Assembly: GCA_017440465.1 (NCBI GenBank)
Contig: JAFSHF010000003.1
Location: 1 to 43,237, forward strand
Source: Clostridia bacterium
GTDB lineage: Bacteria; Bacillota; Clostridia; Oscillospirales; QAKW01
Direction: 5' to 3'
DNA length: 43,237 nucleotides
Shown here: in pieces, positions 29,277-34,239 of the stretch
Numbering within the stretch: position 1 is the stretch's first letter
How the letters are laid out: each line of letters opens with the position of its first letter
Position numbers and translations under genes: made by a program
Notes under the pieces: model-generated
What the model was told of the DNA's origin: nothing
What the model saw: only the letters and a program-made list of their open reading frames with translations
Database searches by the model: none

Positions 29277-29376
29277 AATCGATGAAATGGGCGACTTTTC
29301 CGATTTTTCGGTCTTGACGTATCGACATACGCCTGCGCCCGAAGAAATCAAAAAATTCATCCCATTTGATCGATTT
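29275..29376 (+). repeat. About 100-nt long-hairpin element, copy 2
   Basis: Starts within the stop codon of the SLH gene. Outer arms AAATCGAT-G-AAATGGG (29276-29291) and CCCATTT-G-ATCGATTT (29361-29376), inner arms GATTTTTCGG and CCGAAGAAATC, tip CGTAT-CGAC-ATACG. The core of about 60 nt is essentially identical to copy 3, but the outer arms differ. Confidence 0.8.
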
Positions 29377-29390
29377 GTTCATTAAAAATT

Positions 29391-29420: not shown

Positions 29421-29993
29421 TTATTTTCTGTTTTTCTTTTTCTTCACCGAATAGCCGAAGGAGCCGATCTTTTTCCCGAGGGCAAAATATTGACCGTGGG
29501 CATAGGCGGCAAAGGCACATTTTTCGGGGTGGAATTTGCCTTTTTCATCGATATACCGCTCATCAATATTTACCGCCACAATATCGGCGATAAACATATC
29601 GTGGGTTCCCAAGGGGACGATCTCGGTCACTTTGCACTCGATGGAGATCGGGCTTTCCGCCACCATCGGGCAGGACAGAACCGAAGCCTTTTCGCGCGTC
29701 AGCTTGCAGGCGGCGAATTTATCCAGATCCTTGCCGCTTTTGATCCCGCAGAAATCGATGGAACGAACGATATGGGAAGAGGGCATATTGATAACAAACT
29801 CGCCGCTTTTCTTGATTAAATCATAAGAATAGCGGGAAGGGCGCACCGAGATATAGGTTTTTGCCGGCTCGGAATTGATAATTCCTGTCCAGGCGATGGT
29901 GATGAGATTATCTTTGCCGCCATAGGCGCAGGAGATCAGCGCGGGCGGGACCGGCGCCATCAGCGTGCCGGGCTTCCAGGTTACTTTTGCCAT
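29421..29993 (-). CDS. Flavin reductase family protein (FMN-binding split barrel)
   Basis: 190 residues from ATG 29993, chosen because AGAGGT lies 7 bp upstream on the minus strand; a longer version would lack a ribosome binding site. Pattern WKPGTLMAPVPPALISC...NLITIAWTGIINSEP, then ISVRPSRYSYDLIKKSGEFVIN is the FMN-binding split barrel of flavin reductases of the FlaRed/HpaC type. Probably a soluble FMN-dependent reductase or electron carrier; the partner is unknown. The basic tail SVKKKKNRK is unusual. Transcribed alone from a promoter carrying a 15-bp palindrome. Confidence 0.87.
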   Translation of the reverse strand: MAKVTWKPGTLMAPVPPALISCAYGGKDNLITIAWTGIINSEPAKTYISVRPSRYSYDLIKKSGEFVINMPSSHIVRSIDFCGIKSGKDLDKFAACKLTREKASVLSCPMVAESPISIECKVTEIVPLGTHDMFIADIVAVNIDERYIDEKGKFHPEKCAFAAYAHGQYFALGKKIGSFGYSVKKKKNRK

Positions 29994-30009
29994 AATGATA
30001 CCTCTTTCA

Positions 30010-30024
30010 AATGATAGTATCATT
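30010..30024. promoter_or_regulatory. Candidate operator of flavin reductase gene
   Basis: AATGATAGTATCATT, a palindrome apart from its central base, overlapping the -10 region of the minus-strand promoter. The binding regulator is unknown; the PerR boxes in this window have a different sequence. Confidence 0.45.
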
Positions 30025-30071: not shown

Positions 30072-30506
30072 TTATAGATATTCACGCAAGTCTTTGGAAA
30101 GTTGTTCTTCCAATTGGATCAGTCGCTTGGCAATGTCCTTGGATTTTTCATCGGCCGCTTCATATTTGTTGAGATAGCGGCTGAGGGATTTGACCCCCAT
30201 ATCGCAACCGCTGACCATCAGATCGGCGATGGTGGCATCGGAGCTGTCGATGGAAAGCATCGCGGTGGTCTTGATCCAACTCATCCCCTTGGCGATGGGG
30301 TTGGGGCCTTTGCCGTCGTCGTGGTATTGCTCCAAAAGCTGCTGGATCTCGTTGTTCAGGTGGTCGTGCCGCTCCTTGCAATCGTAAAGCAGCTTGCGCA
30401 TCCCCTCGCTCTTGGAATAATCCAACACCTCTTTGATGGAGGAAATGCCCATCTGCACCCCCGCATCACATTCTCGCAATAGACATATGGTATCGTTTTC
30501 GATCAT
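30072..30506 (-). CDS. Small all-helical protein, possible ferritin-like fold
   Basis: 144 residues, cytosolic, strongly helical and charged, with no signal or membrane segment. I do not recognise a named family with certainty. The layout (four amphipathic helices, carboxylates and histidines such as LLRECDAGVQMG and DCKERHDHLNNEI, and a Lys/Glu-rich last helix) recalls ferritin-like or DUF2383-type bundles, but a complete diiron motif pair (two ExxH) cannot be shown. The start ATG 30506 follows AAAGGGTG. It is separated from the flavin reductase by a terminator. Function unknown. Confidence 0.7.
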   Translation of the reverse strand: MIENDTICLLRECDAGVQMGISSIKEVLDYSKSEGMRKLLYDCKERHDHLNNEIQQLLEQYHDDGKGPNPIAKGMSWIKTTAMLSIDSSDATIADLMVSGCDMGVKSLSRYLNKYEAADEKSKDIAKRLIQLEEQLSKDLREYL

Positions 30507-30574
30507 AAAAAAATCACCCTTTCTATTTTTTAATCATAGTTTGGGTGTTTTGTTGCATTTTTATTCAAATAAAA

Positions 30575-30945
30575 ATAGAAGCGTCCCTTGATCCAACGTA
30601 ATCTTTCACCTTACATTGCGATCAAGGGACACTTCTGGTCACTCTTGATATCTAACATCGAATTTAACCTCTCTTTCTTTGGATCTGCAGTTTCTTCCTG
30701 TCGCTCATTCGTCATTCCACATCGTTTGGTGTTTTTTTCTTGCAAGGCAAGTTCTTTCATGGTCTTGGAGTTTGCGTTTTTCGAATACTGCAGTCGATTT
30801 CTTTGTGCCCTTTCGAATTTGTCCGGTCATCTATCTACACTAATGGGGGAAATCCGGATCTGTTTCTTTCTTCCTTCTCATTCGATTTTATTTTCGAAAG
30901 AAGCACCGGGCTTACTTGTACATTGGTATCACCTTTCCCTTTCCT
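30575..30945 (-). ncRNA. Putative structured noncoding RNA, ~370 nt
   Basis: A TTGAAA-17-TATTAT promoter on the minus strand (30953-30981) reads into about 370 nt without a convincing gene, ending in a long hairpin (30579-30634) and a T-rich tract. The hairpin has 15-bp plus 8-bp stems and a 9-nt loop. Both imperfect pairs are G-U on the minus strand but A-C on the plus strand, which supports a minus-strand RNA. Further short stems can be drawn (for example CTTGC-CTT-GCAAG near 30740). It is purine-rich. I do not recognise it as tmRNA, SRP RNA, 6S or RNase P RNA. A frame of about 70 codons without strong coding character crosses it on the minus strand, so a decayed gene is the alternative. 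Confidence 0.5.
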
Positions 30946-30952
30946 TGTCTAT

Positions 30953-30981
30953 ATAATAGCACAAAAGTTATGAACTTTCAA
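30953..30981 (-). promoter_or_regulatory. Promoter of putative ncRNA
   Basis: Minus strand: TTGAAA (30976-30981), 17 bp, TATTAT (30953-30958). Confidence 0.65.
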
Positions 30982-31056
30982 TATGTAATGTTATACAAAA
31001 TAAACAAATAATTGTTGTTTAAAGGGGAGAAATTCATCGCTTGAAGCATTTTTTTA

Positions 31057-31086
31057 TTGACTTTAATAAATTAGGTGTGATATACT
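31057..31086 (+). promoter_or_regulatory. Promoter firing into an immediate terminator, upstream of LytTR gene
   Basis: TTGACT (31057-31062), 18 bp, TATACT (31081-31086), with an extended TGA before the -10. A terminator begins about 10 bp downstream of the -10. Confidence 0.68.
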
Positions 31087-31095
31087 GAATTTGTT

Positions 31096-31122
31096 GAGGT
31101 GTTGAAAAACGCCTCTTTTTTT
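31096..31122 (+). terminator. Promoter-proximal terminator (possible attenuator or tiny RNA)
   Basis: GAGGTGTT (31096-31103), GAAA loop, AACGCCTC (31108-31115), then seven T. The one imperfect pair is U-G on the plus strand, so it acts in this direction. No plus-strand gene lies upstream for it to terminate. Confidence 0.8.
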
Positions 31123-31220: not shown

Positions 31221-31655
31221 ATGAAATGCAAAATTATTATCGATCCTTCCCGAGAAGAAGAGATCCTCGTTTATGCTCAAAAAACATCCCCGCTGACCGA
31301 AGCGATCGAGCGGTTGGCGAGGGAAGAGGAGTCTACCTGGATCGGCTATGGGAAGGAAAGCATCGTCCCGCTGGATCCCAAGGAGGTTCTTTGCTTTTCG
31401 GTGGAGGGCAATAAGGTCTATGCCCATCTGGAAAAGGAGCGGTTGTGGATGAAATGCCGGTTATATCAGTTGGAGGAACGGTTGCCGGAGGAGTTTATCA
31501 AGATCAATCAATCCTGCATCGCCAACTGCAAAAAGATTGCCCGCTTTGAGGTCTCCATCTCGGGCGCGTTGCGGGTGGTCTTTCGGAACGGGTATTCGGA
31601 TTACGTTTCCCGCAGGCAATTAAAATTTGTAAAAGAAAGGTTTGGTATTCTATAA
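31221..31655 (+). CDS. LytTR-family DNA-binding regulator
   Basis: 144 residues from ATG 31221, with AAAGGAGG at 31204-31211. Residues about 1-45 are a variable N-terminal part (MKCKIIIDPSREEEILVYAQ); residues about 50-144 form a LytTR beta-rich DNA-binding domain (DPKEVLCFSVEGNKVYAHLE, RLYQLEERLPEEFIKINQSC, VVFRNGYSDYVSRRQLKFVKERFG). There is no receiver domain. The next gene is a DUF3021 membrane protein overlapping by one base; LytTR-DUF3021 pairs are a recurrent Firmicutes arrangement in which the membrane protein is thought to modulate the regulator. Targets are not visible. A possible direct promoter is TTGTTT-18-TAGAAT ending near 31196. Confidence 0.92.
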   Translation: MKCKIIIDPSREEEILVYAQKTSPLTEAIERLAREEESTWIGYGKESIVPLDPKEVLCFSVEGNKVYAHLEKERLWMKCRLYQLEERLPEEFIKINQSCIANCKKIARFEVSISGALRVVFRNGYSDYVSRRQLKFVKERFGIL

Positions 31656-32071
31656 TGAATAAATATTTGAAGGAATTTTTGCACCGTGGTTTAATGTTCG
31701 GTGGTTTTGGCCCCATTATTTTGGGGATCGTCTATTGGATCTTATCCGTTGCAGTCGAGGGTTTTTCGTTGAGCGGCGGGCAGGTGTGTTTAGGGATCGT
31801 TTCCATCTATCTGCTGGCATTTGTTCAGGCGGGGGCTTCGGTTTTTAACCAGATCGAAGAATGGGGCATCGGTAAATCGCTGTTGGTCCATTTTCTGACC
31901 CTGTTTGTTGCCTATAGCGGTTGCTATCTGCTCAATACTTGGATTCCCTTTGAGCCGATGGTGCTGTTGATCTTCGCGGCGATCTTTATTGCGGTCTATT
32001 TCACCGTCTGGCTGACTGTTTATTTCATTGTCCGCGCCACCCGCAATAAGCTGAATCATCAATTAAAATGA
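31655..32071 (+). CDS. DUF3021 membrane protein, LytTR partner
   Basis: 138 residues with four hydrophobic segments (about 15-35, 45-65, 78-95, 100-128) and a short basic tail (RATRNKLNHQLK). The start overlaps the LytTR stop (TAATG), so it is translationally coupled. The family is DUF3021, found almost only next to LytTR regulators; the likely role is to bind or restrain the partner regulator at the membrane, which is inference. The -35 of the next promoter begins immediately after its stop codon. Confidence 0.9.
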   Translation: MNKYLKEFLHRGLMFGGFGPIILGIVYWILSVAVEGFSLSGGQVCLGIVSIYLLAFVQAGASVFNQIEEWGIGKSLLVHFLTLFVAYSGCYLLNTWIPFEPMVLLIFAAIFIAVYFTVWLTVYFIVRATRNKLNHQLK

Positions 32072-34090: not shown

Positions 34091-34190
34091 ACTGTTGAAA
34101 TCGAGCGCTTTTCCGATTTTTCGGTCTTGACGTATCGACATACGCCTGCGCCCGAAGAAATCAAAAAATCATCTCGATTTGAACAGTTTT
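34089..34190 (+). repeat. About 100-nt long-hairpin element, copy 3
   Basis: Starts in the stop codon of the CofE-like gene. Outer arms AACTGTT-G-AAATCGAG and CTCGATTT-G-AACAGTT, inner arms GATTTTTCGG and CCGAAGAAATC, tip CGTAT-CGAC-ATACG. It is 102 nt like copy 2. A separate terminator follows. Confidence 0.8.
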
Positions 34191-34206
34191 GAAACAATTA
34201 AAAAAT

Positions 34207-34239
34207 AAAGAGATCGCAGCAATGCGGTCTCTTTTTTTA
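34207..34239 (+). terminator. Terminator of CofE-like gene
   Basis: AAAGAGATCGCA, GCAA loop, TGCGGTCTCTTT with one U-G pair, then a T-run. Confidence 0.9.

Follow-up and report, generated by a model that had tools for sequence, protein, structure and literature searches.

A candidate family of dual-function small RNA and micropeptide genes in Clostridia

In a 43,237-nucleotide stretch of a Clostridia bacterium genome (assembly GCA_017440465.1, contig JAFSHF010000003.1, positions 1 to 43,237; hereafter 'the window'), we identified a region that, with slightly better than an even chance, is a member of a family of autonomous, intergenic Clostridia genes not previously described, each specifying a small RNA that would be both structured and translated into a micropeptide. 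Its most likely identity is a dual-function regulatory RNA whose peptide, and perhaps whose RNA too, would act in trans under a regulated promoter, the role in trans being our guess. The family appears to be new, absent from Rfam 15 and undescribed in the open papers searched, and resembles dual-function RNAs and, in its 3' module, uORF attenuators in kind. Roughly one sixth of the sampled genomes from an order of mostly gut and rumen bacteria carry it, and gene finders miss it because its two reading frames comprise 3 and 9–10 codons. Should the second of these be translated, as its codon pattern implies, the peptides would rank with the shortest conserved bacterial peptides known, and the preserved overlap between its stop codon and the terminator would provide a case of mutual exclusion between translation and termination outside any operon leader.

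The locus and its predicted transcript

An earlier note, made from the letters of this DNA alone, had proposed a minus-strand transcription unit of unrecognised type, starting at a TTGAAA-17-TATTAT promoter and ending in a long two-part hairpin. Both signals are present (Table 1), the promoter with 10 of 12 consensus matches, and the imperfect pairs of the hairpin are as the note described them: plus-strand positions 30582 and 30597 are C, their partners 30631 and 30615 are A, and the pairs 30582/30631 and 30597/30615 are consequently G-U on the minus strand and A-C on the plus strand. The proposed unit is further supported by relatives of the region in other genomes, in which the terminator appears to be under strand-specific selection. 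The elements TTG and TG-TANNNT recur at fixed spacing in 82 relatives chosen for these very features, with flanking positions conserved too.

Table 1. Features predicted for the copy in the window (SD, Shine-Dalgarno)
Feature	Positions	Strand	Basis
Divergent promoter TTGACT-18-TATACT, with short hairpin and T-run	31057–31122	+	promoter and terminator scans
Upstream regulatory region between both promoters; blocks TTTCTCYGTTTTGCATAAA and TTTTGTACAAAAT in relatives	30982–31056	.	fixed-spacing alignment
RNA promoter TTGAAA-17-TATTAT, TG before -10	30953–30981	-	consensus scan, 10/12
Predicted RNA, about 375 nt, from promoter to end of terminator T-run	30570–30947	-	predicted ends; comparison of relatives
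SD1 (AAAGGTGAT) and ORF1, ATG TAC AAG TAA (30923–30912)	30912–30936	-	sequence; relatives
P3/P2 hairpin domain, remnant or diverged, directly before SD2	30668–30755	-	model R2, 21 bits, E 0.04: weak, in the right place
SD2 (AAGAGAGG)	30668–30675	-	near-invariant in relatives; family form GAGAGG
ORF2, MLDIKSDQKCPLIAM and stop	30611–30658	-	codon-level conservation; relatives stop at the position of TGT here (30631–30629)
Intrinsic terminator hairpin (about); 5' arm overlaps last codons and ancestral stop of ORF2	30577–30636	-	fold; compensatory changes

The minus strand, taken over 371 nt, folds to −91.4 kcal/mol (z = −4.0), better than all 100 shuffles, and the plus strand of the same 371 nt gives z = −3.3. 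This excess is owed to the terminator: for the 309 nt that remain without it, z is +0.30 and 56 shuffles in 100 fold equally well. Outside that hairpin, the window copy offers no excess folding in support of the earlier description of the region as a structured RNA. In a comparison of the stem across 12 relatives, 94.6% of pairs are kept and 11 of 17 have changed on both sides, which no shuffle matches, in counts that treat related copies as independent and so overstate the number of independent events. We regard this comparison as decisive evidence for the predicted terminator hairpin, and it bears out the suggestion that selection has acted on one strand.

Further upstream, the predicted divergent transcript would be only a few tens of nucleotides long, and its promoter, its TGTTGGG start and its hairpin recur in 69 relatives. 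Most copies carry an upstream region of ~150 bp with a set order: the divergent unit (a sigma70-type promoter TTGAC-17-TATACT, TGTTGGG and a hairpin with T-run), conserved blocks at fixed spacing, and the RNA's own promoter. Some copies instead have a plain TTGACA promoter and lack the divergent one. A palindromic block in this region matches almost only promoters of this family, and we therefore rejected the idea that it is an operator shared with other loci. The block TTTCTC..GCATAAA is also found elsewhere, partly within genes, and the upstream block TTTCTCYGTTTTGCAYAAA, perhaps an operator of broader use, is also present at two intergenic sites remote from any copy, G002:C45:36795-36813 and G380:C3:46612-46630.

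The locus is flanked by genes for a flavin reductase (29421–30023) and a LytTR-DUF3021 pair (31221–32071), and directly downstream on the strand of the RNA lies a 144-aa gene (30072–30506, minus strand) with no Pfam match. A dispersed repeat of ~77 bp is present at 29300–29377 and 34113–34209, with many further matches in the genome and genus. A protein-coding middle was considered and discarded, as homology searches gave nothing convincing, the conserved 3' end apart, for a 122-aa plus-strand ORF and minus-strand ORFs of 49 and 41 aa.

Short reading frames and the terminator

The earlier note had seen no convincing gene here, which holds for the longer frames and fails for a conserved micro-ORF, ORF2, easily overlooked because the window copy is an unusual member of the family that has lost the usual stop of that frame. 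Across the family, ORF2 is 9–10 codons long and its stop codon sits in the 5' arm of the terminator. In the window copy, the exception, the stop has become TGT, the partner base in the stem has changed to match, and the frame is extended to 30611; very few of 152 copies have an extended ORF2 of this kind. The distance from SD2 to the start varies among copies, and the frame is constant. At the L, D and K codons of 72 model-found copies, 28 of the 35 departures from the commonest codon are synonymous, and the stop position reads TAA, TGA or TAG in 67 of 69 copies despite its location in a base-paired stem, with related copies again counted as independent. Judged by comparison, on its synonymous changes and the conservation of its SD, start, frame and stop, ORF2 is a coding sequence.

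These observations modify the view of the element as a structured noncoding RNA: the structure is conserved in relatives, but so is an ORF that has an SD to itself, keeps its stop and changes mostly at synonymous sites, and the RNA therefore appears to be structured and translated alike. Among the findings that would count against it, the earlier note had listed homologues whose protein-coding frame is intact and biased towards synonymous change; ORF2 is in part such a frame, and the structure is conserved alongside it.

The encoded peptides are predicted to be charged and hydrophilic and fall into two classes. Class A, to which ORF2 of the window copy belongs, follows the pattern M(M)LD[INT]K[SN][ES][QE]K, with consensus MLDIKSEQK, and class B follows M[LI]EP[AK]..K. 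The terminator stem of class B relatives shows compensatory changes as well. A covariance model (R3) for which only class B copies were used, with the window sequence excluded, finds the window copy at E 5e-11 and also recovers most class A copies, and by this crossing the two classes form one family. Both occur together in several genomes, including the window's own, in which a second copy (L054, G000:C5:8234-8336, minus strand) is of class B, with the peptide MLEPAHEMK; it lacks ORF1 and has the divergent promoter and terminator layout seen elsewhere. Copies of the two classes lie 1–1.6 kb apart at L172:881-2550, L179:6336-7463 and G267:C18:14227-15895.

Closer to the 5' end, most copies have a second, much shorter frame, ORF1, consisting of a strong SD, AUG, one to three codons of variable residue identity and a stop (MYK and stop in the window copy). 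It ends within four residues, Met counted, in 64 of the 77 relatives that have a start, where ~17% would be expected for random codons. Its number differs by copy, with two in some and none in others.

The middle of the RNA is variable in both sequence and length, and conserved structure within it is confined to particular groups of copies. An H-type pseudoknot, CAC-n-[G/A]CG-GUG-n-ACG[C/U], is predicted in 33 copies from some clades, with one covarying pair that is G-C in 24 and A-U in 9 and thus compensated in 33 of 33. Its stretch GGCGGUGU appears similar to the sequence complementary to the decoding region of 16S rRNA; this is probably chance, because its G/A change tracks the pseudoknot partner. 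A hairpin with a CUUA loop lies 45–120 nt before the 3' domain, with stems at 33 of the 80 CUUA sites there; shuffles gave 1.65, and a different region had stems at 3 of 70 sites. One group of copies has a helix, P3 (GCCUUUUGC with GCAAAAGGU), closing this hairpin immediately ahead of SD2. Its pairing reaches 94%, and covariation lends it modest support because variation is mostly on one side. A model of the P3/P2 domain (R2), run over 341 kb, identified 25 places at E up to 1, most of which coincide with known elements, the window copy among them.

Distribution and neighbourhood of the family

Homologues were sought, as the earlier note had advised, by a DNA search of 99 related genomes, which gave matches in nine, to both ends of the element and not to its middle. 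A covariance model (R1) that describes the 3' end then matched 70 of 394 searched genomes from the same order, in 35 genera and with up to four copies per genome, and 19 further genomes in the rest of the class Clostridia; it had zero matches across ~298 other genomes of the phylum. The search set is biased toward copies with a recognisable ORF2. An exact-pattern search of genome contigs identified at least 118 places, compared with ~0.1 expected, and among the matches listed the records were assigned to Oscillospiraceae, Clostridia and similar, or to uncultured bacteria, with Candidatus Faecousia and Lawsonibacter among the carriers. Many carriers are gut and rumen Clostridia, and the distribution is patchy even inside the genus. 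We discarded mobile or phage cargo as an explanation, as the exact pattern had zero matches in IMG/VR and blastn of the window element against phage and plasmid collections returned none.

Of 73 copies, 35 have a downstream gene on their own strand and 38 have one on the opposite strand, and only close relatives share a downstream gene family. Two or three copies stand in tandem, ~450–550 bp apart, at L120:4105-5283, L124:1172-4433 and G055:C52:1829-2393, and each tandem copy inspected has its own promoter. From its own promoter and terminator, random neighbours and tandem copies, we conclude that the element is, as far as sequence can tell, an autonomous transcription unit. One protein family, by eye presumably PocR/AraC-type regulators, occurs near copies in seven genomes (G068, G099, G111, G124, G131, G132 and G137), a raw count. 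Two copies have a match to Gut-1 RNA (RF01706) no more than a few hundred bases away, the matches being at L018:1258-1332 (minus strand) and L267:1802-1876 (plus strand).

The statement that the RNA matches no known housekeeping RNA was confirmed: at the gathering threshold, Rfam 15 (tmRNA, 6S, RNase P and others) left the element unmatched in the window and in relatives, and relaxed thresholds returned only sub-threshold chance matches, such as stem matches of the mir-2363 type. The peptide strings and the motif were likewise unmatched in the main texts of the open papers searched.

Competing readings and known systems

In the dual-function RNA that we favour, ribosomes would load and drop off at ORF1, leaving the middle of the RNA ribosome-free and its 5' end guarded, and ORF2 would yield the micropeptide. 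With a ribosome at the ORF2 stop, the 5' arm of the terminator would be occupied, making translation of ORF2 and folding of the terminator mutually exclusive, because the finishing ribosome must open that arm. Three features of the window copy speak against the dual-function reading, namely the missing ORF2 stop, the weak P3/P2 match and the lack of excess folding outside the terminator; the mostly one-sided variation of P3 and the patchy distribution of the family count against it too. The three features would also suit a decayed copy, functionless in this genome whatever its relatives do, but promoter, SD1, ORF1, SD2 and ORF2 start are all intact and a compensating change in the stem accompanies the altered stop, so that we consider decay very improbable. 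We also entertain, tentatively and as a minority view, a new class of self-contained, ribosome-engaging regulatory RNA in which a domain of pseudoknot and hairpin just ahead of an SD would gate translation of ORF2, the ribosome on ORF2 would determine whether the terminator of that RNA can form, ORF1 would park ribosomes at the 5' end, and the two peptide classes (MLDIKSEQK and M[LI]EP..), often found in one genome, would be paralogous. A plain micropeptide mRNA, with ORF1, the middle and the hairpins merely tuning stability and translation, would explain why no part is as constant as ORF2 and why that frame changes like coding sequence, why the middle varies in sequence and length, and why some copies do without ORF1. 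We think it unlikely, given that pseudoknot and hairpins are kept by compensation in other clades and that the constancy of ORF2 is partly a product of how copies were selected, because ORF2 was found via its own conserved end.

The remaining readings give the short frames or the neighbours a different role. Strong SDs and start-stop ORFs, in most copies an SD, AUG, one to three codons and stop and sometimes two such ORFs in succession, could act as a sink that traps ribosomes or sheds peptidyl-tRNA in the manner of lambda bar minigenes; such a sink leaves the conserved ORF2 peptide, the terminator overlap and the pseudoknot unexplained, and we judge it improbable. The stop codon in the 5' arm of the terminator, as in the fthC uORF motif (PMC11109978), would suit a leader peptide or attenuator of the next gene, in which read-through would follow when a ribosome on ORF2 keeps the terminator from forming. 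However, only 35 of the 73 copies share their strand with the next gene, which belongs to no family that recurs beyond close relatives; this random orientation led us to discard a leader of the downstream gene, and we hold attenuation to be decidedly improbable. Scarcely credible, finally, is a type I toxin–antitoxin pair like tisB/istR, with the short divergent RNA as antitoxin. The layout is alike, a short divergent transcript beside an mRNA of ~340 nt with a mini-ORF and a small ORF, but the divergent RNA pairs with its cognate long RNA no better than with non-cognate ones, that is, no better than chance, and the charged, hydrophilic peptides are not membrane-active in character.

The dual-function RNA proposed here can be set beside several known systems. 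The fthC motif (PMC11109978) is a uORF attenuator with its stop codon in the terminator stem, and it has in common with the element an SD, a short ORF and a stop in the 5' arm of the terminator. uORF attenuators differ in requiring a consistent same-strand downstream gene, whereas the neighbours of the element are random. In the type I toxin–antitoxin system tisB/istR, an mRNA of ~340 nt carrying two small ORFs has a short divergent transcript next to it, a layout that the element repeats; the element has no antisense complementarity beyond chance, and its peptide is hydrophilic where the toxin is small and hydrophobic. In tmRNA, a pseudoknot is accompanied by a tag ORF with its stop in a helix and by a tRNA-like domain charged with alanine. 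The element is alike in its length of about 360 nt, its pseudoknot and a short, tag-like ORF with its stop in a helix, and differs in having no tRNA-like domain, in being unmatched by tmRNA in Rfam scans and in ending in an intrinsic terminator. The lambda bar minigenes, consisting of an SD, AUG, one or two codons and a stop, resemble ORF1, which in most copies has an SD, a start, few codons and a stop; unlike them, ORF1 is one component of a bigger conserved RNA, which carries a longer ORF as well. SgrS/SgrT, SR1/SR1P and RNAIII/hld are dual-function small RNAs. In these, as in the element, a small autonomous RNA carries an SD, a short conserved ORF and an intrinsic terminator; unlike them, the element has an ORF2 of only 9–10 codons that enters the terminator stem, together with an extra 5' start-stop ORF and a divergent promoter. 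Two of the properties expected of a dual-function small RNA are predicted for the element, an autonomous unit and a translated ORF.
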